Assembly: GCA_945860895.1 (NCBI GenBank)
Contig: CAMASK010000026.1
Coordinates: forward strand, 1 to 34,999
Length of the DNA: 34,999 nucleotides
Source of the DNA: Bacteriovorax stolpii
Lineage (GTDB): Bacteria > Bdellovibrionota > Bacteriovoracia > Bacteriovoracales > Bacteriovoracaceae
Direction of reading: 5' to 3'
Made by a program: the position numbers and the translations under genes
Notes under the pieces: model-generated
The model's database searches: none
What the model saw: the letters and a program-made list of their open reading frames with translations, nothing else
What the model was told of the DNA's origin: nothing
Shown here: in pieces, positions 15,399 through 29,333 of the stretch
How positions within the stretch are numbered: the stretch's first letter is position 1
Layout of the letters: every line of letters starts with the position of its first letter

Positions 15399-16640
15399 TT
15401 AGGCTTTCTTAAACAAAGTTGAAGAATTTGTTCCACCAAATCCAAAAGAATTATTAAGAGCATACTGGATGTCTTTTTTCTTGGATTTATTGGCGACATA
15501 ATCAAGATCACAAAGTGGATCCTGATTTTCTAAGTTAATGGTAGGTGGTAGCATCCCCGTTTCAAGGGCCTTAATGCAGAAAATGGATTCTAATCCACCA
15601 GCAGCCCCAAGTAAGTGGCCAGTCATTGATTTTGTAGAACTGACACTCATCTTGTAAGCCTGATCTCCAAATACTTTTTTTATCGCCTGAGTTTCGGCCA
15701 CATCACCTAATGGGGTAGAAGTTCCATGAGCATTCACATAACCAACTTCTTCTTTTCTAACGCCCGATGATTCAAGAGTTTGTTCCATACACAATAAAGC
15801 GCCCAGTCCTTCTGGATGGGGAGCTGTAATATGATGAGCATCTGAGCTTGCTCCAAAGCCAACTATTTCAGCAATAATACGCGCTCCACGGGCCACAGCC
15901 TTGTCATAATTTTCTAAAACTAAGATTCCAGCACCTTCGCCCATCACAAATCCATCACGATCAACATCGTAAGGACGAGAAGCTCGATGAGGCTCTTCAT
16001 TTCTTTTTGAAAGAGCTTTCATGCTGGCAAAACCAGCAATAGTATAACCAGTGATAACACCTTCAGTTCCACCAGTTATCATGGCGTCCTGGCGACCCAT
16101 CATAATTTCAGTTGCCGCTAAACCAAGTGCATGAGCACTTGAGGCACAAGCCGACGCTACTGCAAAGTTAATACCCTTGAACCCATAAAGAATAGAGATT
16201 AATCCTTCAGGCATATTTGGAATCACAGACGGAATAAAAAAAGGAGTTACCCTACGGGCACCTTTTTCTAAGTAGATCTTATGATTTTGTTCGATATGAG
16301 GAAATCCACCTAATCCAGTTCCAAAAATAATACCAATTTTGGCGGCAGAGTATTTGGCTTCTAATAAGCCAGATTGTTTAATCGCTTCGTCAGCTGAATG
16401 AAGTGCGTACTGATTAAATAAGTCAAAACGATCCTGATCCTTAAGGGGCATCAGATTTTCATTCAATTTAAAGTTTTTAACTTCTCCACCAAAAGTGACT
16501 GGCCAGCCTTCTGTAGTCTGACGAGTAATTGTGGTTATGCCGGATTTTGCGGCCAGGGCGTTTGTCCAAACTTCATCTAGACTATTGCCTAGCCCACAAA
16601 CTGCACCCATTCCAGTTACTGCTACACGATTTAATTTCAT
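15399..16640 (-). CDS. fabF: Beta-ketoacyl-ACP synthase II
   Basis: FabF elongates acyl-ACP with malonyl-ACP in cytoplasmic type II fatty-acid synthesis. The 413-residue product has the Cys-His-His triad of elongating condensing enzymes: Cys165 in VASACASSAH, His305 in VNAHGTSTPLGD and His342 in SMTGHLLGAAGG, plus the C-terminal NNSFGFGGTNSS. I start at ATG 16640 (MKLNRVAVTGMG), which aligns with family N-termini. An in-frame TTG at 16652 would add four residues and would have GGAGG 11 bases upstream, inside the preceding hairpin. The gene follows acpP across a terminator-like hairpin, so its expression is probably set below that of ACP. Confidence 0.96.
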   Translation of the reverse strand: MKLNRVAVTGMGAVCGLGNSLDEVWTNALAAKSGITTITRQTTEGWPVTFGGEVKNFKLNENLMPLKDQDRFDLFNQYALHSADEAIKQSGLLEAKYSAAKIGIIFGTGLGGFPHIEQNHKIYLEKGARRVTPFFIPSVIPNMPEGLISILYGFKGINFAVASACASSAHALGLAATEIMMGRQDAMITGGTEGVITGYTIAGFASMKALSKRNEEPHRASRPYDVDRDGFVMGEGAGILVLENYDKAVARGARIIAEIVGFGASSDAHHITAPHPEGLGALLCMEQTLESSGVRKEEVGYVNAHGTSTPLGDVAETQAIKKVFGDQAYKMSVSSTKSMTGHLLGAAGGLESIFCIKALETGMLPPTINLENQDPLCDLDYVANKSKKKDIQYALNNSFGFGGTNSSTLFKKA

Positions 16641-16653
16641 AGTTATATCCAAA

Positions 16654-16682
16654 AATGAAAAAGCCTCCTTGCGGAGGCTTTT
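16654..16682 (-). terminator. Intrinsic terminator/attenuator between acpP and fabF
   Basis: AAAAGCCTCC and GGAGGCTTTT form a perfect 10-bp stem around a four-base loop that reads GCAA on the minus strand. It is followed by TTTTTCATTTTTGG. This is a convincing Rho-independent terminator 4 bases after the acpP stop. Because fabF begins about 20 bases later without its own clear promoter, partial read-through is likely. Confidence 0.85.
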
Positions 16683-16686
16683 AAGA

Positions 16687-16920
16687 TTAATGTGATTTTG
16701 TTTTTAAGTAAGTTACAACGTCGCCGATGGACTTGAGATTTTCTGTTTCATCTTCTGGAATCTCTATACCGAACTCGTCTTCCATTTTCATCATGAGTTC
16801 AACCATGTCCAAAGAATCGAGGTTAAGATCATCTACGAAGCTTGTATTTAAGCTGATATTAGCGGCATCCATTTTTGTAGCTTCAGAAACGAGCTTAATT
16901 ACCTTCTCTTGTAATTCCAT
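16687..16920 (-). CDS. acpP: Acyl carrier protein
   Basis: The 77-residue acidic protein is a canonical ACP, the carrier of acyl chains for fatty-acid, phospholipid and lipid A synthesis. The phosphopantetheine site is DLNLDSLDMVELMMKMED with Ser36, and FGIEIPEDETENL follows as in the family. The start is ATG 16920 with GGAGG 8 bases upstream; a TTG further out (16935) lies inside that ribosome binding site and is not used. It is separated from fabG by 206 bases that contain a good -35/-10 pair, so acpP can be transcribed independently of the upstream fab genes. A strong terminator follows. Confidence 0.98.
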   Translation of the reverse strand: MELQEKVIKLVSEATKMDAANISLNTSFVDDLNLDSLDMVELMMKMEDEFGIEIPEDETENLKSIGDVVTYLKTKSH

Positions 16921-16950
16921 TAAAATATCCTCCAAAATTTAAGATGCACT

Positions 16951-16979
16951 AACTTATTAAACATCCATCCTGACGTCAA
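16951..16979 (-). promoter_or_regulatory. Probable acpP promoter
   Basis: On the minus strand TTGACG (16979-16974) is followed after 17 bases by TAAGTT (16956-16951), about 30 bases before the acpP start. The -35 is near-consensus and the -10 is weak. The rest of the gap (16980-17126) contains small inverted repeats (GGAAATTTTTCC; GAGAA/TTCTC; GAGTAA/TTACTC) but no gene or clear terminator for fabG. Confidence 0.45.
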
Positions 16980-17126
16980 TTTTTTATTGCCATCTCTCAT
17001 CAGTAATATCCCTCATTTACTTCTTGCTATTTATTGAAAATACTAGACTTTTTTATTATTTTTTTGCATTGAGTAAATTACTCTAAAGAGAAACTAAGCT
17101 TCTCCTATGGAAAAATTTCCAACTAA

Positions 17127-17885
17127 TTAGATGTAGAGACCACCATCAATCTTAAGGACTTCACCAGTCATGTAACTTGATGCCTTACTTAATAGAAAAC
17201 AAGTAAGAGAAGCTACTTCTTCAGTGGTTCCAAAACGCGCTAGAGGAATGGATTTTGAATATTCTTCTTTAGCTTTTTCATTAAGAGCGTCGGTCATTTC
17301 GGTTTGTATGAAACCAGGACAGATCACATTACAACGGACATTCCTTGATGCTAATTCCTTTGCCACTGATTTAGAAAATCCAATGATACCTGCTTTAGAA
17401 GCTGCATAAGCGGCTTGCGAAGGGTTTCCCATAAGACCAACAATAGATCCCATATTTACGATGGAAACATTTTCAGCTTTTAAAAAATTTCGAGAAAGGG
17501 CCTGAGTGACAAACATGCAGCCCTTTAAGTTTGTATCTATAATGGATGATATTTCATCAGGCTTCAAACGAAGAAGAAGAGTGTCTTTTGAAATTCCTGC
17601 ATTGTTGACCAGACCAGAAATGGGAGCCACGGTTTTTGTGAAATTATCCAGTTCTTTTGTCATAGCTTCATAATCCGTCACATCGAATTTTAATCCTGAG
17701 GCCTGACCACCTGCTGCTACTAACTCTTCTTTTAGAGCTGCTGCTTTAGCTTCATCACCACGATAGTTAAAAACCACATGCGCACCTTGAGCGGCGAGGG
17801 CCAGACTGATATGTTTACCGATACCGCGGGCAGCACCAGTTACGAGGATAACTTTGTTTTTTAAATCAGAATAAGTAGCAATCAT
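17127..17885 (-). CDS. fabG: 3-oxoacyl-ACP reductase
   Basis: FabG is the NADPH-dependent reductase of the fatty-acid cycle. The 252-residue SDR protein has the cofactor motif TGAARGIG (16-23), NNAG at 94-97, and the catalytic set Asn119, Ser147, Tyr160 and Lys164 (YAASK). PGFIQTEMT and the C-terminal MTGEVLKIDGG are typical of FabG. Its ATG overlaps the fabD stop as ATGA, so the fabH-fabD-fabG genes are translationally coupled. Other SDRs resemble FabG, but the gene context removes doubt. Confidence 0.96.
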   Translation of the reverse strand: MIATYSDLKNKVILVTGAARGIGKHISLALAAQGAHVVFNYRGDEAKAAALKEELVAAGGQASGLKFDVTDYEAMTKELDNFTKTVAPISGLVNNAGISKDTLLLRLKPDEISSIIDTNLKGCMFVTQALSRNFLKAENVSIVNMGSIVGLMGNPSQAAYAASKAGIIGFSKSVAKELASRNVRCNVICPGFIQTEMTDALNEKAKEEYSKSIPLARFGTTEEVASLTCFLLSKASSYMTGEVLKIDGGLYI

Positions 17886-18814
17886 AGGGCCTCAACTTCG
17901 GAAAATCCTGTCTCAGAATCAAGACTAATGACTTTCAAATTAGGGTTTATTTTTTTTATCAATCCGGCCAGAACTTTACCTGGACCACACTCGATAATAA
18001 TTGTGTCGTCTTTTAATTTTTGAATACTGTGTGTCCATAGAACACTTCCGCAAACTTGCTTGAGGAGATTTTCCTTAATGATTAGCGGATTAGTATCAAT
18101 GGCGTACTCATTAGCATCAATGTTTGCGGTATAAGAAAACTTTAGTGGATGAAAGGTGATCTGATCTAAAACTGCTTTCAATTTAATTTCCGCTGGCTTC
18201 ATTAAAGCACAATGAAATGGAGCAGAAACCTGAAGTTCAATCGCTTTGACTCTGGCTTGGGTCTTCTTTTCCAAGAGTTTGATGGCCCTTTCGCAGGCAA
18301 GTTTATTTCCGGAAATTACAATCTGACTTGGATCATTAAAATTTGCGGGTGATACAGATTCAGTTGAAGTTGAAGCGGCAATACAGGCTTCGCGGATAAT
18401 GTCTTCACTTTGTTTGAGGATGGCGTACATGGTTCCAAGTCCTGCTGGAACTGATTCCTGCATATATTTTCCGCGGTAATGGACTGCTCTTACTGCATCT
18501 TCAAAATTAAGGACACCGGCCGCAGATAAGGCAGCATATTCACCGACGGAATGACCTAGCACTCGTCTGATAGAAATATGTTTTTTCTCCAGCAATGTTT
18601 TTAATTTTTCAAATAACATGAGTGAGTGGGCCACGATGGCAGGCTGGGTATTCTCAGTCAGTTTAAGATCTTCTGCTGGACCTTCCAGCATCATCTTCTT
18701 GAGATCATAACCAGCTGCCTGATTTGCGGTATCAAAAAGTGGATGATCAGCAAAATTTGCTCCCATTCCTACGTACTGAGTACCTTGACCAGGAAATACA
18801 ATGGTAACCTTCAT
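17882..18814 (-). CDS. fabD: Malonyl-CoA:ACP transacylase
   Basis: FabD loads malonyl groups onto ACP. The 310-residue product begins with the family hallmark FPGQGTQYVGMG (7-18) and has the nucleophilic Ser89 in GHSVGEYAALSAAG and the catalytic His201 in SAPFHCALM. IIECGPGKVLAGLIKK near the C-terminus is also conserved. The start follows fabH by 8 bases, with a GGGG motif just upstream, and the stop overlaps fabG. Length and order match the family. Confidence 0.96.
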   Translation of the reverse strand: MKVTIVFPGQGTQYVGMGANFADHPLFDTANQAAGYDLKKMMLEGPAEDLKLTENTQPAIVAHSLMLFEKLKTLLEKKHISIRRVLGHSVGEYAALSAAGVLNFEDAVRAVHYRGKYMQESVPAGLGTMYAILKQSEDIIREACIAASTSTESVSPANFNDPSQIVISGNKLACERAIKLLEKKTQARVKAIELQVSAPFHCALMKPAEIKLKAVLDQITFHPLKFSYTANIDANEYAIDTNPLIIKENLLKQVCGSVLWTHSIQKLKDDTIIIECGPGKVLAGLIKKINPNLKVISLDSETGFSEVEAL

Positions 18815-18822
18815 TTCAACCC

Positions 18823-19821
18823 CTAGTATTTAAGGAATGCAGCTCCGGCAGTTAAACCGCCACCAAAAGCTGCAAGCAGGATATTATCTCCGCGTTTGAT
18901 TCTTCCATCGCGGATAGCTTCGTCTAAAGCTATTGGAACTGAAGCCGAAGAAGTGTTGGCATATTTATCAACATTGATAATGACTTTTTCAGGAGGAAAG
19001 CCGAAACGATTTCCTACTGCTTCGATGATTCTTAAATTTGCCTGGTGAGGAATAAACCAATCCACATCATTCATGTGTTTGCCGGCATCATTAATAACTT
19101 TTTCAGAGAGAGCTGCCATCGTTTTTACGGCAGATTTAAAAACTTCCTGGCCATTCATTTGGACCCAATTCTCACCTTTTTCCAAAACTTCATGAGTGAT
19201 ACGTTGAACTGCACCACCTGCTGGAATTTTAAGATGATCTCTTTTAGTTGAATCAGCAGTTAAAACTGTTGAGTAAATTTGGCTCTCTTCATTTTCAGAA
19301 GCTCGACCTAAAATAGCGACACCACAGCCATCGCCAAAAAGAATACAAGTATTGCGATCATCCCAGTTATTAAATGAACTGGTCATCTCTCCACCAACGA
19401 CGAGAATGTGTTTGTATAAACCAGTTTGAATCATGGCATTTGCCATTGGGATTAAATACATCCAGCCAGTACAAGCAGCATTTACATCCAAAGCCGGACA
19501 ACCATTTGTGATGCCCAGTTTATGCTGGAGCATACACGCAGTGTTTGGAAAAAAATGATCAGGAATTGTAGCTGAAAATAAAATCAGATCAATATCATTG
19601 GCAGTTAAGTTGGCCACTTCGAGTGCACGCTCAGTTGCAATCTTGGCCATACCACTGGGAGTCTCATCTTTTGAAGGATCAGCAATTCGTCTTTCGTGAA
19701 TACCAGTTCTATCCACAATCCATTGATGGTTGGTATCTACTCTTTTGGCAATATCATCATTGGTGAGAATCTTATCTGGAAGGAAACTACCGGTGCCTAG
19801 GATTTTCGTATTGAATTTCAT
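18823..19821 (-). CDS. fabH: Beta-ketoacyl-ACP synthase III
   Basis: FabH starts fatty-acid synthesis by condensing acyl-CoA with malonyl-ACP. The 332-residue protein carries the triad Cys117 (NAACTGW), His259 (FIPHQANLRI) and Asn289 (ANTSSASVP), with the usual N-terminal GTGSFLPDKILTN and C-terminal AFGGGLTAGAAF. It follows rpmF with only a terminator-like hairpin between, and plsX, its common upstream neighbour, is absent. Whether it prefers acetyl- or branched primers cannot be judged from sequence alone; the fused 2-oxoacid E1 in the window would be compatible with branched primers, but this is speculation. Confidence 0.96.
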   Translation of the reverse strand: MKFNTKILGTGSFLPDKILTNDDIAKRVDTNHQWIVDRTGIHERRIADPSKDETPSGMAKIATERALEVANLTANDIDLILFSATIPDHFFPNTACMLQHKLGITNGCPALDVNAACTGWMYLIPMANAMIQTGLYKHILVVGGEMTSSFNNWDDRNTCILFGDGCGVAILGRASENEESQIYSTVLTADSTKRDHLKIPAGGAVQRITHEVLEKGENWVQMNGQEVFKSAVKTMAALSEKVINDAGKHMNDVDWFIPHQANLRIIEAVGNRFGFPPEKVIINVDKYANTSSASVPIALDEAIRDGRIKRGDNILLAAFGGGLTAGAAFLKY

Positions 19822-21498: not shown

Positions 21499-22938
21499 AT
21501 GCAGACCACACTTCAGGGAATTGAATTATCTGTGGCAATTTTGATGGATGATTTGGCTTCGGCTAAAGAAATCGCATCGGCCTTAAGACAAAACAACATT
21601 CTCGCTCATCACTATCAAAGTCTCGATGAATTTTGGGTTGCTTCGAATATTGATTGCCCAGATTTAGTTTTCATCGATGTGACAAAAATGAGTCAGGGTA
21701 GTGTGCAGTTTAAGCAGCATCCTAAAGTTGTGGATAAATCCCTTTCTTATGTTTTTTATTCAAAAGACTCAACTAAAGTTTTATTACAATCAACTTTTGG
21801 ATTGAAGCCTTTTGGTTATATTCACAATGATCCTTCTCTCAATGTTCAGATCATGAGTTTGGTCGAGCGTCGTTTAGAAATAATTAAGCATCAAAAAGAA
21901 ATGAAAGAATTGGAACTTAGAATTAACCGATTACAGACAAGATCCCAGCGTCTTATTTCTGATCGAAGCTCCGCCGAAGAATTTAAATCTCATTTTGAAT
22001 TTATCCGCACTTTTTGCGGTGAAGTTGAATTAGATTCTATGGTTCAGGATTTCACACAATCTCTACTTTCCAAACTTGAAAAGTGGGAAGCGATTGATGG
22101 ATACGGTATCTATGAACTAAATCAAAGTGGACAGAAATTAATTTCACCTGAAACTTCAAAAAGAAAATATCATCCTTTTCCATCTTTGTGGTTAGGTCAG
22201 GCGAACCATCAAGGCATTGAAAATTTTGCTCTAGAAATGGCAACCCAGGTTGCGAATGATTTATTTGAAAGAGAGCCTGTAATTCTCCAGATTCACGCCG
22301 GAAGCTCTAAGCCAGATATGGTGTTGTTTGTTTCTTTCAGAGAAGAGCGCATGATGAATTTTCCATGGGATGTTTTCGAGTCAATGTTAAGCTCAAGCCT
22401 TCGCCGTTTAAAACTTCATCAACAAATTCCACAACTGACTTCTCAGTTTACTCCGATGTGGGAAGCTCTTGATAGTATGGATAAAATGCAGAGAGGAGGG
22501 GTAGATACAGATACAAGGATTCTTTGCCTGAGTCTTATTCCATTAATGAATGTTGCCAAGAAAAGATTTCAAAATAAATTTTACTGGTCAGCTTTTTTCA
22601 ATGATTTCTTCATCCAGCTTTCAGGTCGTTTAAATAAATCAACAAAGCTTTCTCTATTTGGCCCATGGCATGTGATTTTCTTTATTCCAAAAGAAGATTT
22701 AGAAACTGAATTTCAAATTCTTCAGACTTTTGTTCGTCAGTTTAGCTTCTGGAAATTCTTCGAAGATAATTCGCAAGTTCTATCTGATGAAATGATTCCT
22801 GTTCTAAAATTGATTCCCGCTTCTTCTTCTCACTACTTAAAAATTTTTGAAAAAGAATTTGAAGATATTGCAGGTGAGCAGGAAACCAAACGTCTAATGA
22901 CTCTCGCTCGCTCTGATGGCAAAAGACTTTCCACATAA
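21499..22938 (+). CDS. Receiver-like (CheY-fold) protein with coiled coil and unknown C-terminal region
   Basis: The 479-residue product starts at ATG 21499 (GGAGG 5 bases upstream); an in-frame ATG at 21442 has no such site. Residues 10-120 look like a receiver domain: acidic pair Asp17/Asp18, phospho-acceptor Asp60 in LVFIDVT, Ser88 in YVFYSKDS, and PFGYIHND where the usual catalytic Lys appears to be Asn110. Residues ~120-165 are a charged coiled coil. The rest (170-479) may contain a GAF-like alpha/beta domain, but I recognise nothing firm. The stop overlaps the alr start (TAATG), making it the first gene of a long operon with alanine racemase and the Mla genes. Probably a regulator or scaffold that is not switched in the standard way. 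Confidence 0.72.
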   Translation: MQTTLQGIELSVAILMDDLASAKEIASALRQNNILAHHYQSLDEFWVASNIDCPDLVFIDVTKMSQGSVQFKQHPKVVDKSLSYVFYSKDSTKVLLQSTFGLKPFGYIHNDPSLNVQIMSLVERRLEIIKHQKEMKELELRINRLQTRSQRLISDRSSAEEFKSHFEFIRTFCGEVELDSMVQDFTQSLLSKLEKWEAIDGYGIYELNQSGQKLISPETSKRKYHPFPSLWLGQANHQGIENFALEMATQVANDLFEREPVILQIHAGSSKPDMVLFVSFREERMMNFPWDVFESMLSSSLRRLKLHQQIPQLTSQFTPMWEALDSMDKMQRGGVDTDTRILCLSLIPLMNVAKKRFQNKFYWSAFFNDFFIQLSGRLNKSTKLSLFGPWHVIFFIPKEDLETEFQILQTFVRQFSFWKFFEDNSQVLSDEMIPVLKLIPASSSHYLKIFEKEFEDIAGEQETKRLMTLARSDGKRLST

Positions 22939-24044
22939 TGAGACACTCAACCTTCCTGGAAGTAAACCTCGGTTTACTTCAGGAAAATTTCCTTAAGATT
23001 AAAAGTTTTAGCAGCGCCAAGATTTTACCTATGGTTAAAGCCGATGCATATGGTAATGGTATAATTGCTATTTCTAAGTATCTAGTGGAGCAATGTGAAG
23101 TTCGAACTTTAGGATGTGCTTCATTAGGCGAAGCCTTGCATGTCTTTAATCAATGTCCAGATCTAAATGCGGAAATGATGGTCTTCTCTGATTCAGAAAT
23201 TTCAAATCCTGAATTGGCCGAAGCTTATGCAAATTTAGCTATCACTCCAGTACTTCATCAAAGAAGTGATGTTGAAGCCGTTCTTCACAACCCAGTCTTA
23301 TCGAAGATCCCAATAACTTTAAAAATTAACACTGGCATGAATCGTTTAGGACTAAGTCTGGATGAATTAGCAGAATTGGCCCCGAAGTTAAAAACTCGTG
23401 GTGTAAAACACTTGATGACTCATTTTTCATGCTCTTACTACAGCCTAAAAGATGGGGATAAGTCTCATCGACAAATGGATGAATTTAAAAAGGCTAAGGA
23501 CATTCTCAAAAATGCAGGAGTTGAAGTTAAAGAGACTTCTGTTGCTAATTCTGGAGCCATTGAGCAAAAATTCGGCATGAATGAAACTTATATAAGACCA
23601 GGATTAATGCTCTATGGTCCACCGAGTGTTGAACCTCGGATCTGGGATGGTCATCAGATTTCGAAATTACAGACGAAAATTTTGAAAACTTTTATTGTAA
23701 AAAAAGGCACTCCCGTAGGTTATGGAATTAATGTTGCCGGGGAAGATGGTTTTATTGCGATTATTCCGATTGGTTATGCCGACCTGAGTGTGACTACTGC
23801 CAGTGGTGCAGAACTAATGATAAATGGCCATAAAGCAAAAATCTTTGCACGAGTTAATATGGATATGTCATTTTTAATATTTGATGCCTCTGTGGCCGGT
23901 AAACTAAAAGCCGGTGATAGCATTGAATTTTGGAATCATGACAACCGAACAATAGCTGATCTTGCAATTCAAATGAAAACCATTCCATATCAATTAATGT
24001 GTGGAGTCACTAATCGAATTCCAAGAATATATAAGGTAAAATAA
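22938..24044 (+). CDS. alr: Alanine racemase
   Basis: Alr makes D-alanine for peptidoglycan. The 368-residue protein has the PLP lysine in PMVKADAYGNG (Lys34), the second base Tyr262 in VGYGIN, the barrel segments TLKINTGMNRLGL and SVANSGAI, and the C-terminal ARVNMDMSFLIF. Length fits the family. The start overlaps the regulator stop by one base, so it is translationally coupled, and mlaE follows after 5 bases. The mix of a wall precursor enzyme and a lipid transporter suggests an envelope operon. Confidence 0.95.
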   Translation: MRHSTFLEVNLGLLQENFLKIKSFSSAKILPMVKADAYGNGIIAISKYLVEQCEVRTLGCASLGEALHVFNQCPDLNAEMMVFSDSEISNPELAEAYANLAITPVLHQRSDVEAVLHNPVLSKIPITLKINTGMNRLGLSLDELAELAPKLKTRGVKHLMTHFSCSYYSLKDGDKSHRQMDEFKKAKDILKNAGVEVKETSVANSGAIEQKFGMNETYIRPGLMLYGPPSVEPRIWDGHQISKLQTKILKTFIVKKGTPVGYGINVAGEDGFIAIIPIGYADLSVTTASGAELMINGHKAKIFARVNMDMSFLIFDASVAGKLKAGDSIEFWNHDNRTIADLAIQMKTIPYQLMCGVTNRIPRIYKVK

Positions 24045-24049
24045 TTCGA

Positions 24050-24841
24050 ATGAAAGTCATGGTCGAAAAAAAAATTGAATCACTCGGGATCTATGTCACT
24101 GATTTACTCAATGGTTTAGGTGATTTTACAAATTTTACTTTTAAAACCATCTACTGGACGTTTAAGCCACCCTATAGATGGAAGTTACTATTTGAACAGA
24201 TTTATTTTATTGGAAACAAATCTGTGTTTATCATTTTTTTAACATCTTCATTCACCGGAGCTGTTTTTGCTTATCAGATATATGTAGGAATGAAAGTTAT
24301 CAATGCTGATTCATTTATTGGTCCATTAGTCACAATTGCACTTGCAAAAGAGCTTGCACCGGTTCTGTCCGGTCTGGTAGTGGCGGGGCGATGTGGAGCG
24401 GCTATGGCGGCCCAGATTGGTTCAATGAAAGTGACTGAACAGATCGATGCTTTAGAAGTGATGGGAATCAATAGTTATCAGTATCTTGCCGTTCCAAGAA
24501 TTCTTGGAGCAACTATCAGTATGCCGATGTTGTCTGCCATTTTTCTTTTAATTGGATATGGTGGTTCCTGGTTAATTGGAACAAAAGTTCTGATGATTGA
24601 TGAAGTGACTTTCACTTCTAAGGTAAGTGACTTCATGGAACTAGGAATGGTGACTGAAGGAATAATCAAGGCCACGGTTTTTGGTTACTTAATCGGCATC
24701 ATTGGAACTTATCAGGGCTTTAATGTCACTGGTGGCGCTGAGGGTGTGGGTAAGGGGACTAACATGGCAGTGGTGTGGGGAATGATCACTGTCTTAGTAG
24801 TGGATTTCTTTTTAACCAGCTTTCTGACACAAATTTTATGA
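24050..24841 (+). CDS. mlaE: MlaE-family ABC transporter permease
   Basis: The 263-residue inner-membrane protein matches MlaE/YrbE, the permease of MCE lipid transporters. Conserved pieces are FIGNKSVFIIFLTSSFTGAVF, the TIALAKELAPVLSGLVVAGRCGAAMAAQIGSMKVTEQIDALEVMG stretch (residues about 96-140, quoted by its key elements ELAPV, GRCGAA and EQIDAL) and the C-terminal GFNVTGGAEGVGKGTN. About five hydrophobic segments follow an amphipathic N-terminal helix. The ATG at 24059 is an alternative start; neither has a strong ribosome binding site, consistent with coupling to alr. Its stop overlaps the mlaF start as ATGA. Confidence 0.93.
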   Translation: MKVMVEKKIESLGIYVTDLLNGLGDFTNFTFKTIYWTFKPPYRWKLLFEQIYFIGNKSVFIIFLTSSFTGAVFAYQIYVGMKVINADSFIGPLVTIALAKELAPVLSGLVVAGRCGAAMAAQIGSMKVTEQIDALEVMGINSYQYLAVPRILGATISMPMLSAIFLLIGYGGSWLIGTKVLMIDEVTFTSKVSDFMELGMVTEGIIKATVFGYLIGIIGTYQGFNVTGGAEGVGKGTNMAVVWGMITVLVVDFFLTSFLTQIL

Positions 24842-25581
24842 GCGAATATTCAATTGAGTTCCAGCATTTAACTAAGAAGTTTGGTGAAGCCACCATCCTT
24901 AATGATGTTTCCTTTGGAATCGTAAAAAATAAAATCACCACCATTTTGGGCTTTTCTGGTGCAGGCAAAACCACTTTGATGAAGCACATTCTTGGACTCA
25001 CTATGCCCACCAGTGGTGATGTAATTGTATTAGATACTACGATTAATAAACTGGGAGACCTTCAGCTCAGGGAATTTCGTCGCAACTTTGGAATGGTTTT
25101 CCAGTATGCGGCCTTATTCGATTTTCTAAATTCTTATGAGAATGTGGCTTTTCCTTTGCGCGAATTCACTAAAATGACTGAGGAAGAAATAAAAGAAAAG
25201 GTGATGAGCTTATTGGAATCCGTAGGAATTTCAAAAGAAGCCGCGTTTCGTCTACCATCGGAGCTGTCTGGAGGAATGAGAAAACGTGTGGGTCTGGCCC
25301 GAGGTCTTGCACTTGATCCACACATCATGCTGTATGATGAGCCGACTTCTGGTTTGGATCCTATTACTACTCACATGGTTTATGATTTAATGAAAGAAAC
25401 CCACTATTCTAATGTTCACAAAGGATTTACTTCAGTCATTATCTCTCATGATATTCATGCCACATTAAAATACTCTGATTATATTGTCTTTATGGAAGCG
25501 GGGAGAGTAGTTGAGCATTTAGATGTAGAAAGCTTCAAAAAATCGGAAAATCCTGTCATACGAAGATTCCTTGAGTTATAG
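24838..25581 (+). CDS. mlaF: MlaF-family ABC transporter ATPase
   Basis: The 247-residue ATPase powers the MlaE permease. It has Walker A GFSGAGKT (38-45), the Q-loop at FQYAALF (Gln89), signature LSGGMRKRVGLARGLAL (143-159), Walker B IMLYDEPTSGLDP (163-175) and H-loop His204. The residues around the signature and AALFDFL match MlaF/MkL rather than other importers. I start at ATG 24838 because it overlaps the mlaE stop (ATGA) and aligns with family N-termini; a longer in-frame reading lies wholly inside mlaE. Confidence 0.94.
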   Translation: MSEYSIEFQHLTKKFGEATILNDVSFGIVKNKITTILGFSGAGKTTLMKHILGLTMPTSGDVIVLDTTINKLGDLQLREFRRNFGMVFQYAALFDFLNSYENVAFPLREFTKMTEEEIKEKVMSLLESVGISKEAAFRLPSELSGGMRKRVGLARGLALDPHIMLYDEPTSGLDPITTHMVYDLMKETHYSNVHKGFTSVIISHDIHATLKYSDYIVFMEAGRVVEHLDVESFKKSENPVIRRFLEL

Positions 25582-25649
25582 CCGAAATCGCTTATCATAA
25601 TTCTAATAACCGATAGTTAGTGTTACCGAATTTTGATGGAGTAAAATTC

Positions 25650-27032
25650 TTGAACCCACTGAAAGTAGGACTTCTCACTTTGGCAGCTTTGGCCAGTATT
25701 GTGGTGATGTCTTTAAAAATTACATCAAATAAATCCGGGTTCGGTGAATACGTTACCTATAAAACTGTGTTGAAAGATGCATCTGGAATTTTTGAAAAAT
25801 CTCCTATTAAAGTTGCTGGTATCAATGCAGGCAGAATTAAATCAATTGTCTTAAATGGTTCTGAAGGTGCATTGATTACTTTTGAAATGCTTGAAGGGAT
25901 TAAACTCACCAATAACTCCCGCCTAAAAATAAAGTCTGTTGGCTTTCTAGGTGATAAATATCTTGATATCCTTCTCGGTGATCAAAACGCTGAAAAGCTG
26001 CCTGAAAATTCTATGATTCCTTCTGAAGGCGGTGGTGGTTTTGAAGAACTTTCCAAGGACGCCGGAGAAGTGCTGAAGGAAGTGAAGGAAATTGCCGTTA
26101 CGATCAAGGAGTCCCTCAAGGATGCCGAGGGTAAGAATATGGTGAAGGAAATAATTGCCAATATTCATGAAATAACTGCCTCTCTTAAACGTATTACGAC
26201 TGCCAATGAAGATAAGATTAATCAAATTGTTGATGATGTCCGTGCTATTTCTGAACAACTGGCTTTTGAAACTGATCGAAACCAAAAAGATTCTTTAATG
26301 GCCGATCTTTCAAAAATCGGTCCAATTCTTGATAAAGCTGATGTAGCCGTAGGTGATTTAAAAATTATCATTGCCGATTTAAAAGATGGTAAAGGCACTG
26401 TTGGTAAACTACTTCGTGATGATGCCGTTGTGGATCAGGTATCACAAACCCTTTCTAGCGTAAACCGATTAGTTAACCGAATAAACAACATTGAAGCTGA
26501 TATTGGTTTGTCTACTGGTGCAAATACCAGAACTGGTACTGATACTCGCTTTGACCTGGATATTTATCCTGCTCCGGAAAGATTTTTCCGTCTAGGTATT
26601 GTGACCAATGAATTTGGGCCTCAATCGGAGTCTGAAAGTGATACCTACACTAGTACCAATGGTGGAGCGACTCAACACGTGAATACACGTAAAATCGATA
26701 AATCTGATTTTAAATTTAACTTCCAGATTGGTCGTCGTATTCAGCGCTTTGGTCTTCGTGCCGGTTTGATCGAATCAACCGGGGGCGTGGGTCTTGATTA
26801 TTTCTTTCCAGACTGGGGTATCCGCACAGGTATGGAATTATTCGATTATCAAAAAAATGCCGGGCCTAATTTGCGTTTAATGACTGAAATAAAACTTTGG
26901 AACGTTCTCTTTGCTCGAGTAGCAGGTGAAGATTTAGTTTCCAAAGATGGAAGTCAAAGTGCGACTTTTTCTCTAGGTCTCAGATTTAGTGATCAGGATC
27001 TTGCTGCACTTATTGGGATTTTTGCCAGGTAA
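25650..27032 (+). CDS. mlaD: MCE (MlaD-like) protein with C-terminal beta-strand-rich extension
   Basis: From the TTG at 25650 (GGAG 8 bases upstream) the product is 460 residues. It has an N-terminal TM anchor (NPLKVGLLTLAALASIVVM), an MCE domain at about 35-125 (VLKDASGIFEKSPIKVAG, VGFLGDKYLDILLG) and a helical/coiled-coil region to about 290 that includes KDGKGTVGKLLRDD. From ~300 a glycine- and aromatic-rich region of alternating strands follows (FRLGIVTNEFGP, FGLRAGLIES, GVGLDYFF, GIRTGMELF, SATFSLGLRF) and resembles an outer-membrane beta-barrel or OM-inserted domain. A GTG at 25620 would extend the protein but lacks a ribosome binding site. It is the substrate-binding, bridge-forming partner of MlaEF. 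No mlaB, mlaC or mlaA is nearby, so the C-terminal part may replace the periplasmic shuttle. Confidence 0.87.
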   Translation: MNPLKVGLLTLAALASIVVMSLKITSNKSGFGEYVTYKTVLKDASGIFEKSPIKVAGINAGRIKSIVLNGSEGALITFEMLEGIKLTNNSRLKIKSVGFLGDKYLDILLGDQNAEKLPENSMIPSEGGGGFEELSKDAGEVLKEVKEIAVTIKESLKDAEGKNMVKEIIANIHEITASLKRITTANEDKINQIVDDVRAISEQLAFETDRNQKDSLMADLSKIGPILDKADVAVGDLKIIIADLKDGKGTVGKLLRDDAVVDQVSQTLSSVNRLVNRINNIEADIGLSTGANTRTGTDTRFDLDIYPAPERFFRLGIVTNEFGPQSESESDTYTSTNGGATQHVNTRKIDKSDFKFNFQIGRRIQRFGLRAGLIESTGGVGLDYFFPDWGIRTGMELFDYQKNAGPNLRLMTEIKLWNVLFARVAGEDLVSKDGSQSATFSLGLRFSDQDLAALIGIFAR

Positions 27033-27035
27033 TAT

Positions 27036-27638
27036 ATGGGAAAAAATTGGTTAATCAGAACAAAATCAAATCATATTCTTGGACCAGTATCCAAAGATAA
27101 GGTTGTTGAGTTGTACCAAAATGGCTCTATTAAACCTGATGATGAAATCTGTAGTGGTAATGGTTATTGGTTTTTCATTCGTGAAAGTGAATTAGTTGAT
27201 AAATATTTATTAGGTTCTGAACAACAATCATTTAATCCAATCAGTGAAGCTAAAGACGTTCTTACTTCTTCCGATCCTGATGCTCATTCGGGCTCAAAAG
27301 ATGACATTACTATGATTGGCGCAATTGACTTGAGCAAGATAAAGGAAACCGCTAAACCGGTGATCCAGAATGTGCCTAAAGCTGATCATGAAGGATCGCT
27401 GAAAAAAAAAATGAAGGTTGAAACTGTAGCTAAGCAGTCAGTTACCTTTAAATCTTCTCAAAATTATTTAAAATATTTTGGATACTTTATTTTAATCATT
27501 TTCATTCTTTTGATTTACTACCGTAAATCTGTTTTAAAGACATTCTTTTCAAGTATCTTCTTTAATCCTGTCAGTTCATTAATTATTCCCACAGCTGAAG
27601 CTCAGGATGAAAGTCCTGCTAAAAAAAAAAGCTATTAG
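27036..27638 (+). CDS. GYF_2-like domain membrane protein (5' part of a probable frameshift gene)
   Basis: In its own frame the product is 200 residues. Residues 3-54 (NWLIRTKSNHILGPVSKD..., with GYWFFI) match the GYF_2/DUF4339 pattern of a small peptide-binding domain. A low-complexity linker follows, then TM at about 145-162 (FGYFILIIFILLIYY) and a second hydrophobic stretch ending IPTAEAQ, which looks like a signal-peptidase site. The frame ends in AAA codons inside an A10 tract (27621-27630), then Ser-Tyr-stop. From the tract onward the -1 frame is open for over 1.1 kb. A single -1 slip joins the two into a 574-residue protein. The gene starts 3 bases after the MCE gene, so it belongs to the Mla operon. 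Function unknown. Confidence 0.75.
   Translation: MGKNWLIRTKSNHILGPVSKDKVVELYQNGSIKPDDEICSGNGYWFFIRESELVDKYLLGSEQQSFNPISEAKDVLTSSDPDAHSGSKDDITMIGAIDLSKIKETAKPVIQNVPKADHEGSLKKKMKVETVAKQSVTFKSSQNYLKYFGYFILIIFILLIYYRKSVLKTFFSSIFFNPVSSLIIPTAEAQDESPAKKKSY
27621..27630 (+). other. A10 slippery tract, candidate -1 frameshift site
   Basis: Ten consecutive A residues fall in frame as AAA AAA AAA A, followed by GC. Slipping back one base reads AAG CTA TTA and continues in the open downstream frame; the 0 frame stops 6 bases past the run (TAG 27636-27638). Runs of this kind cause ribosomal -1 frameshifting or RNA-polymerase slippage, and are also common sites of sequencing error. Confidence 0.6.
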
Positions 27639-28759
27639 ATTCTAAAATCATCATTGATGAAGTCATTTTCCGGCCAGAAGTAGGACTCGAAGGATTTAGA
27701 GTCATCTCTCAATTAAATGTTGATAAATTTAGCTGCCAGCAATTAGAGAATCATATTGTCCAATTGGCTATCGTGCTCTATCCAGTGGATCTTGTGAATG
27801 AAATGTTTTTGATTAAAGTCCGAGACTGCATGGTTAAACTAAACGAAAAGCATCCAGTAAAAAGATGGCTTAAATCTCAGTCTACTTTAGCCAAGCCGGA
27901 TGCAACTGCGCAAAAGAAAATTGATTTTTTAAATAAAATTTTGAATTCTCAATTCAATCTCATTACGGATCAAAAGACTAAAAACATGGTCATTTCTTTA
28001 ATCGGTGAGATAACAGGTAAATCTAAACTAGAAGAAATTTTAAAGTCATATCTTTACCTGATGATAGGGAACATTACCCGCTCAGATAATATCCTGAAGT
28101 CACTAATTCAGCAGCCTGCGCGTTTTTTTTATCAGGGCTATAATATCAAGCCTTCTATTTATGAAAAGCAAACGGTCACTAATATTGAGAAAGTTTTAAG
28201 AAAGTTTTCACGCCATCCTGCGGATAGATTAACGTTCTATTTATTTAATCAATACGTAAAAAGTTTTTTGAATAAAAAAGAATTACTATCATTAATCGAC
28301 GACATCGAGCCAAGTGACTTAGATAAAAAATTGAATCTTGCCTATACGGAGAAAATTGCTCCTGAGCTTGTGGGGTTTTTGCGTTTATCAAAATTAAGTG
28401 ATGAAAAAAGAATGAAGAATCTTAGAAGTCCCAAATATCGATTAGAGATGCAAAGTTATTGGATTTGGTCCTTTTTACCAGTTGATCCTCTTATGTCGGA
28501 CATGACTGTTGAAAGAGTCAAAGAGATTGATAAATTAGATCCTTTGTGGGCAATGTATCTTCTGGACAATGAAAAACTTGCCGATCTTTATTTTAAAAAA
28601 GGTGGAGAACCTTTAATGAGAAGAAGAAAATTCCTTAGACAAAATTTAAAAAATGAAAAAGATTTTATGTTAACGCTTTATAAGTTAATTGAACTTGGTG
28701 ATGTTGACGGAGAATTAGTTAACGATGTCTTGAATTTCATTTCCAAATATGACCACTGA
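27623..28759 (+). CDS. Downstream -1-frame part of the GYF-like gene, unknown domain
   Basis: In the -1 frame the reading is open from 27623, just after a TAA at 27620, to the stop at 28759. There is no ATG or GTG before 27800, and the TTG at 27764 and ATG at 27803 have no ribosome binding site, so independent initiation is unlikely. The encoded region (SKIIIDEVIFRPEVGLEGF, then a ~330-residue helical, Lys-rich segment with KHPVKRWLKSQ and RRRKFLRQNLKNEKDF) has no domain I recognise. As part of the fused protein it would follow the TM segment and lie on its far side. The last 11 bases overlap the methyltransferase start. It may be a functional half made by slippage, or the remains of a gene broken by a recent single-base change. 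Confidence 0.6.
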   Translation, partial: KKKLLDSKIIIDEVIFRPEVGLEGFRVISQLNVDKFSCQQLENHIVQLAIVLYPVDLVNEMFLIKVRDCMVKLNEKHPVKRWLKSQSTLAKPDATAQKKIDFLNKILNSQFNLITDQKTKNMVISLIGEITGKSKLEEILKSYLYLMIGNITRSDNILKSLIQQPARFFYQGYNIKPSIYEKQTVTNIEKVLRKFSRHPADRLTFYLFNQYVKSFLNKKELLSLIDDIEPSDLDKKLNLAYTEKIAPELVGFLRLSKLSDEKRMKNLRSPKYRLEMQSYWIWSFLPVDPLMSDMTVERVKEIDKLDPLWAMYLLDNEKLADLYFKKGGEPLMRRRKFLRQNLKNEKDFMLTLYKLIELGDVDGELVNDVLNFISKYDH

Positions 28760-29333
28760 TTACTCACAGCCAGAATTTTATCGCTTCAATCAGGACTCCA
28801 TTTTTCTTGTTAATTGGATATTAAGCCAAAAAAGAACTGGCCAGCGGCTACTGGATCTAGGTGCAGGATGCGGAGTGATAGGCATTGAACTTGCTCGTAA
28901 CATGCATCCAAAATCACTGACATTAGTTGAATTTCAAAAGGAATTCATTCCTTATATAAAAAGAAATTGTCATGTTTTCTTACCCGAAAATATTGATTTT
29001 CATATCATTCATGCTTCTTTCTCTGAAATGCAAGCTTCTCAAATTTATGATCTGATAGTATGTAATCCACCTTATTATTTACCAGGAAAAGGCCAGGAAC
29101 CAAAACTTCCTCAGAGAGCTCTTGCCAGAAGTTTTATTCAGGATAATTGGTCTGTGCTTTTAAGCTTAATTGAAAAAAATCTTCAGAAGCGTGGAAGAGC
29201 CTTTATAGTGGTGAAACAGGATCCTCTTATCTTAAAAGAAGTAGAAAGAGCAATGCCTAAGGCCCTTTATCTTGACCTGCACCATGACCACGAGCTTACT
29301 ATTCTTGAACTATCGACTTTGGATATAGATTGA
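28749..29333 (+). CDS. SAM-dependent N6-adenine methyltransferase, TrmN6-like
   Basis: The 194-residue protein has SAM motif I LLDLGAGCGVIGIELA (at about 34-49), an acidic residue at the end of strand 2 (LTLVEFQKE) and the catalytic motif IV NPPYY typical of N6-adenine or glutamine methyltransferases. The NPPYY followed by a Pro/Gly-rich loop resembles TrmN6 (tRNA1(Val) A37), but the substrate is not certain; PrmC-type and rRNA enzymes share the motif. It begins 11 bases inside the preceding gene and ends overlapping the convergent DciA-like gene by 24 bases. Confidence 0.85.
   Translation: MTTDYSQPEFYRFNQDSIFLVNWILSQKRTGQRLLDLGAGCGVIGIELARNMHPKSLTLVEFQKEFIPYIKRNCHVFLPENIDFHIIHASFSEMQASQIYDLIVCNPPYYLPGKGQEPKLPQRALARSFIQDNWSVLLSLIEKNLQKRGRAFIVVKQDPLILKEVERAMPKALYLDLHHDHELTILELSTLDID

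Follow-up and report, generated by a model that had tools for sequence, protein, structure and literature searches.

The A10 run at positions 27621 to 27630 of the window (the whole 34,999-nucleotide stretch of Bacteriovorax stolpii DNA analysed) is probably a programmed slippage site, at which slipping of RNA polymerase would make one gene yield two, and perhaps three, nested products. As deduced from the sequence, the polymerase would slip on this run in a fraction of transcripts and add an A. The unslipped mRNA would be translated as far as the TAG at 27636, giving a 200-residue inner-membrane protein in which a linker connects a cytoplasmic GYF-like domain to one membrane helix. With one extra A (or four), the downstream frame ORF2 would be read as well to give a 574-residue protein with a solenoid on the periplasmic side, and cleavage by signal peptidase I at an AxAQ motif could free this periplasmic domain. 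The tract would then determine how much membrane anchor is made relative to periplasmic domain, next to the MlaE/MlaF/MCE lipid transporter.

Organisation of the locus

The source genome is a MAG of 2.79 Mb in 129 contigs. Three adjacent genes on the forward strand precede the slippage gene and encode an MlaE-type permease (24050..24841; Pfam PF02405, E 1.6e-71, 240.7 bits), an ABC ATPase (24838..25581; Pfam ABC_tran, E 1.1e-30, 107.4 bits), called MlaF-type from its position between mlaE and the MCE gene, and an MCE/MlaD protein (25620..27032; Pfam PF02470, E 7.1e-13, 49.1 bits). In the ORF list, the last of these ends 3 nt upstream of ORF1. The Pfam matches and the ORF order agree with the operon of mlaE, mlaF and an MCE gene recognised in the first-pass annotation. 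A methyltransferase gene (MTS; 28749..29333, forward strand; Pfam PF05175, E 2e-12) overlaps the end of ORF2. Immediately upstream of mlaE is an ORF at 22938-24044 that we take from its translation to be alanine-racemase-like, and a minus-strand cluster at 15399-19821 presumably consists of genes resembling those for fatty-acid synthesis, again as named from translations.

ORF1, the zero-frame product of 200 aa (27036..27638, forward strand), starts at the ATG at 27036 and ends at the TAG at 27636-27638. It encodes, in order, a GYF-like domain (residues ~1-58; 27036..27209), a linker, one hydrophobic helix predicted to span the membrane (residues ~144-162; 27465..27521; placed by eye from the sequence), the motif A-E-A-Q (27594..27605), KKKSY and the stop. 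Two A10 runs lie within it. Tract 1 (27402..27411), which the earlier annotation did not mention, falls between the linker and the membrane helix; it is in frame here, and the other two frames both stop within a few codons. Tract 2 (27621..27630) is the candidate slippery site joining ORF1 to ORF2.

Direct reading of the letters confirmed the anatomy previously claimed for tract 2. The zero-frame TAG starts 6 bases after the run. The -1 frame is closed by a TAA at 27620..27622, ahead of the junction, and is afterwards open for more than 1.1 kb (27623..28759; ORF2, 378 aa, forward strand). Addition of one base at A10 gives a frame of 1722 nt, i.e. the 574 codons of ORF1 and ORF2 joined. The earliest ATG, GTG or TTG in the -1 frame of the window is a TTG at 27764.

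Predicted domains of the two products

ORF1 had been described as GYF_2-like. In Pfam, GYF_2 scored 15.5 bits against ORF1, below the cut-off of 25.8; among 44 members, 17 matched GYF_2 at E <= 0.1, the best at 0.0011. The N-terminal domain in the AlphaFold2 model of L094, a relative with a continuous gene, matched solved GYF domains with Foldseek probabilities of up to 1.00 and target TM-scores of up to 0.70, at E-values of at least 0.5. The label GYF-like is therefore based on a sub-cut-off Pfam score together with Foldseek matches of weak E-value.

In the full-length L094 model, a small alpha/beta domain (1-58) is followed by disorder (67-154), helices (159-187, the first of them, 159-176, corresponding to the predicted membrane helix), further disorder (188-211) and then a solenoid. 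The AlphaFold2 model of ORF2 (pLDDT 92.7, pTM 0.91) has a beta-hairpin and then a helical solenoid almost from the first residues. ORF2 had no Pfam match above cut-off, and across the members there were scattered weak matches in one or two members each. Neither NCBIfam, PHROG nor plasmid records gave a match. No PDB sequence was found at E <= 0.001 (best 0.65), nor any PDB fold at E <= 0.001 with the model. TPR repeats were indicated neither by a Pfam TPR match nor by a confident PDB fold match. ORF2 is thus assigned, by prediction, as a helical solenoid, which would lie on the periplasmic side.

The A-E-A-Q sequence just upstream of tract 2 is probably a signal-peptidase-I site, as judged from the motif and not from a predictor. 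Its A189 and Q190 are invariant in 16 aligned ORF1 sequences. An AxAQ-like pattern was present in 59 of 71 genomes; its lack in the other 12 counts against the proposed cleavage.

ORF2 is under coding constraint. Compared with genome G001, differences at the three codon positions are 0.33, 0.18 and 0.57, with the third position highest. Similarity of ORF2 within the genus starts at the first lysines.

Conservation of the junction run in Bacteriovoracaceae

ORF1 was found in 122 of 129 Bacteriovoracaceae genomes (one genome per species) and in 47 of 48 genera. A self-built iterated HMM detected an ORF2 homologue in 96 genomes of the family. In 73 of these the two ORFs are joined by a single shift, 3 have a double shift, 15 have a continuous frame and 5 have a separate ORF2 gene. 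Genomes were sorted by eye into the continuous, separate, double and no-ORF2 classes, with ORF2 presence and absence matching the iterated HMM. Outside the classes are six genomes cut by contig ends (G014, G107, G108, G109, G131 and G154), seven without an ORF1 match, and G026, which has no ORF2 match. When ORF2 alone was used as query, matches were found in 27 of 98 genomes, including the genome itself and 24 of 25 other genomes of the genus.

The 73 single-shift genomes represent 27 genera, and the shift at the poly-A run is -1 in 71 and +1 in 2, these counts not being independent as the genomes are related. The set was obtained with a script requiring an A run of at least 7, except for G021 and G045, which were placed by hand because their contigs end within the locus. 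The iterated HMM confirmed ORF2 homology in all 73. The junction run is A9 in 12 genomes, A10 in 51, A11 in 6, A12 in 3 and A14 in 1; although the script accepted A7, neither A7 nor A8 occurred at any of the 73 junctions. A frame list made without the run requirement gave only two frame-changed ORF2 genes lacking a run (G036 and G150), both of which start like a signal peptide. The run is kept in loci spanning 29% to 62% GC, the latter in G021. Named loci matching ORF1 belong mostly to Bacteriovoracaceae, Bacteriovorax, Halobacteriovorax and other Bdellovibrionota MAGs, and include one isolate, Bacteriovorax sp. BSW11_IV (L125), which is among the genomes agreeing on the junction.

A short and a long isoform made by programmed frameshifting or transcriptional slippage, as suggested in the first-pass annotation, are supported by the recurrence of the same run and -1 relation in 71 genomes. 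The annotation also pointed out that a sequencing error or a phase-variable tract would look the same. The window is a MAG contig and homopolymers are error-prone. However, 73 genomes of different species concur, the isolate included, and the coding constraint on ORF2 speaks against a pseudogene. Given the same junction run and -1 relation in 71 genomes of 27 genera and ORF2 homology in 73 of 73, an assembly error is excluded for the window, and the chance that the arrangement reflects sequencing error or gene decay is negligible.

The same recurrence strongly disfavours random phase variation, in which mutation of the tract in DNA would toggle production of the long form. Long A tracts are prone to mutation, the frame state varies between species, and run length differs among some close species (A11 with +1 in G006 versus A10 with -1 in G013; A12 and A14 in genus g9; A10 and A11 in genus g3). 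Nevertheless, the frame states (-1 in 71, +1 in 2, continuous in 15) are far from the random distribution of a freely varying tract, and length is constant in many relatives: G003 and G012 match at both tracts, A9 is shared by three g8 genomes and A10 by four g13 genomes. Phase variation also gives no reason for the missing A7 and A8 runs, and is considered very improbable.

The +1 genomes are G006 (A11) and G164 (A10). In three others, G025 (L022), G120 (L082) and G157 (L162), a +1 shift at tract 1 is followed by a -1 shift at tract 2. Neither arrangement is produced by one added A, and both count against slippage of RNA polymerase. Some of the +1 cases might be assembly errors. The opposed shifts of the double-shift genomes cancel, and these are either assembly errors or genuine double-slip genes.

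In genus g32 (L161, L190, L194 and L197), a -1 A9/A10 tract is located farther downstream, within the start of the ORF2-like domain; here the slip site seems to have been relocated and its use retained. In G056, positions 6-101 of the ORF2 model match across the end of ORF1.

Continuous, separate and absent ORF2

Relatives with an uninterrupted frame and no A run, or with a separate second gene, had been named beforehand as speaking against slippage. Uninterrupted relatives do exist, but a run of at least 9 A is retained in 14 of the 15. Among the 14 continuous genes that were measured, 13 have one or more such runs, and the fifteenth, G050, has A10 and A9. The run-less gene, that of G042, counts against the proposal. 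In G166 the sole A9 is deep inside the frame, and the only run in G048 resembles tract 1. After 25 runs in 13 continuous genomes, the median distance to the farther of the stops in the two other frames is 13 nt; for randomly chosen positions in those genes it is 38 nt (p 9e-7). Single runs reach 100 nt, and relatedness of the genomes makes the p value generous. On a tree of 24 members of the genus, the in-frame label changed 5 times, with at least 3 changes forced by well-supported branches, and clustered no more than shuffled labels did. Frame state has thus changed repeatedly while the run persisted, so that of the two the tract is the more stable.

Separate ORF2 genes were likewise found, in G051, G036, G114, G149 and G150, and in all five the junction lacks a run of 9 or more A. 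G114 has an A9 170 nt beyond the ORF1 stop, inside ORF2, and the contig of G149 starts within ORF1. As judged by eye, the separate genes open with what resembles a signal peptide, its last residues being AQ or SQ. This start is the best pointer to a periplasmic location of ORF2 and to AxAQ cleavage of the joined form, both of which we infer.

These five genomes, and the overlap of the two ORFs, would also fit two separate genes, with ORF2 translated from its own start or by coupling. This was found to be highly unlikely for the frame-shifted loci. Within 30 codons past the tract, the ORF2 frame of the 69 -1 genomes inspected has an ATG in 8 and any of ATG, GTG or TTG in 26. An SD-like motif accompanies an ATG in none and any start in 3, in agreement with the earlier statement that ORF2 has no credible start or ribosome binding site. 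Furthermore, ORF2 similarity in the genus extends from the first lysines onward, and a protein begun at a junction-side start would have no export signal.

In all 19 genomes without ORF2, the end of ORF1 is free of such a run. In three of them (G052, G110 and G112), runs of at least 9 A lie more than 260 nt upstream of the stop, and G052 has another 350 nt downstream. In genus g15, which lacks ORF2, ORF1 closes with NKPLPV immediately behind the helix and has neither AxAQ nor KKK; this holds for all 11 genomes whose locus is not truncated at a contig end. The lack of the junction run from the five separate-ORF2 and 19 no-ORF2 genomes supports its role in joining the two frames.

Tract 1 has a more restricted distribution. 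Of 23 genomes tested within the genus, 21 have a run of at least 9 A at this position, 212-242 nt upstream of tract 2, but the run is present in only 37 of 82 genomes, which counts against the proposal. In these 37 genomes, the farther other-frame stop lies at 11 nt, versus 42 nt for random positions (p 4e-16, also generous owing to relatedness). By position, tract 1 is the break site in G011, G034, G057, G151 and G164. It is conceivable, as a tentative extension, that the two tracts in series form a three-way splitter: a slip at tract 1 would give a soluble GYF product, no slip the membrane-anchored GYF protein, and a slip at tract 2 the long form, from which signal peptidase would free a solenoid serving the MCE transporter. 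Selection would then keep the tract and not the frame, the wiring having changed repeatedly with the product mixture constant.

Transcriptional versus ribosomal slippage

The first-pass annotation left the type of slippage open, and the evidence here leans to transcriptional over ribosomal. A junction run of no fewer than 9 A is consistent with the 9-10 bp RNA:DNA hybrid described in PMC5009743. Nine bases is also given in PMC1088944 as the length at which many genomes avoid such runs.

Programmed -1 ribosomal frameshifting, or sliding of the ribosome on AAA lysine codons, would make the same two proteins. Ribosomes can slide on A runs encoding lysine, A10 contains the slippery heptamer A_AAA_AAA, and the -1 relation in 71 of 73 genomes is as expected for this process, so that ribosomal slipping could contribute. 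A loose Shine-Dalgarno (SD) score of 5-6 upstream of the run, found in 9 of 73 genomes and in none of 73 control stretches, points in the same direction and counts against RNA polymerase; we suspect that this excess stems from the AQ[DE] codons. A stronger AGGAG or GGAGG sequence was upstream in just 1 of 73. Moreover, 7 A suffice for the ribosomal heptamer, yet A7 and A8 junctions are absent. Downstream RNA structure gave no signal, with a mean z of -0.21 versus -0.26 for the control over 73 genomes and a z of +0.22 for the window. The phase of A10 relative to the zero frame is variable (22, 8 and 20 across the three phases). The two +1 genomes and the continuous genes that keep their runs are left unexplained by a ribosomal event. 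On balance, ribosomal frameshifting is regarded as rather unlikely to account for the site, and slippage of RNA polymerase is preferred.

Comparison with known slippage systems

The closest counterparts are the type VI secretion genes tssM1 of Citrobacter rodentium and tssM3 of Yersinia pseudotuberculosis, for which transcriptional slippage giving two length variants is reported (PMC4256274). As here, an inner-membrane protein has its C-terminal periplasmic part behind a poly-A run with a nearby stop, and of the pair, one gene is in frame while the other is not. At the A11 of tssM1, the reported efficiency is ~20-25%, with 10-15 A measured in mRNA, and C. rodentium requires both TssM variants and their ratio (PMC4256274). 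The proteins and the operon are different, and slippage was measured for tssM, whereas in our case it is proposed from sequence. The authors report just one further tssM with poly-A (PMC4256274), whereas the junction run described here is found in 27 genera.

In dnaX of Thermus thermophilus, 9 consecutive A (T on the template strand) lead to a short and a long product by transcriptional slippage, and the wiring varies between bacteria, since E. coli dnaX uses a ribosomal frameshift (PMC5009743, PMC1088944). In Bacteriovoracaceae, by contrast, both wirings of one gene occur within one genus, and the longer product gains a domain that is probably exported. The Shigella genes mxiE, spa13, spa33 and mxiA are plasmid-borne cellular genes in which slippage gives extended or truncated products (PMC5009743, PMC4256274); they serve type III secretion, unlike the Mla/MCE-operon gene. 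In the papers considered here, bacterial examples of programmed slippage are confined to individual genes or to narrow groups; in the PMC1088944 survey, insertion sequences make up the largest group.

Bd0075 of Bdellovibrio bacteriovorus, treated as predation-essential, has a predicted cytoplasmic GYF-like domain, a membrane helix and extracytoplasmic TPR domains (PMC12034629). It resembles joined ORF1-ORF2 by description alone, and differs in having at least 965 residues and in being described as a single protein (PMC12034629).

In the open-licence literature, no paper was found on Bacteriovorax with transcriptional slippage or programmed frameshift, or on Halobacteriovorax with slippage, so novelty is unproven; for Bdellovibrio with transcriptional slippage, only a soil-virus paper turned up. 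The main text of the frame-transition survey PMC3711429 includes neither Bdellovibrio nor Bacteriovorax. The site is conserved in 27 genera of a single family, at locus GC contents of 29-62%, and has natural variants that are out of frame, in frame, split or lost, which offer a test bed for whether selection maintains the ratio or the frame. Ordinary annotation is likely to overlook this second product of a conserved Mla/MCE operon, or to annotate it as a pseudogene.

Origin of ORF2 and rarity of long A runs

None of 14 GYF loci from other families of the phylum has a run of at least 9 A inside the GYF ORF, and none gave an ORF2 match; by eye, 12 of the 14 adjoin an ABC ATPase gene. A wider ORF2 profile matched 58 of 240 genomes in a phylum sample, all of them Bacteriovoracaceae, with a sensitivity that is not complete, as it missed G036, G037 and G147, which were found by the iterated HMM. 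Since the GYF ORFs of other families have neither run nor ORF2, and the ORF2 profile is restricted to the family, ORF2 and its tract seem to have originated within Bacteriovoracaceae.

Runs of at least 10 A occur at only 12 distinct places (16 A10 windows) in the 2.79 Mb genome, and 2 of the 12 are in this gene (27402-27411 and 27621-27630). The A10 runs here are therefore beyond chance. In the single-contig genome G016, this gene accounts for 3 of 6 A10 windows. No run of at least 9 A was found in 44 kb of control upstream ORFs, which contain just two KKK triplets, a number insufficient for testing codon use. A contrasting gene with A10, which encodes an OmpA-type lipoprotein, has a run of at least 10 A in only G000, G003, G009 and G012 of 17 matched genomes, and the second match in G001 has A9.

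In this OmpA-family lipoprotein gene (L035/L238; G000 C9 27163-27807), the A10 follows soon after the lipobox cysteine and is in frame. Another A10 is near codon 34 of a 219-aa frame (L044; G000 C85 5731-6387) with Gp49-like and HTH domains, resembling a toxin-antitoxin gene, for which the matches of many relatives hold stops.
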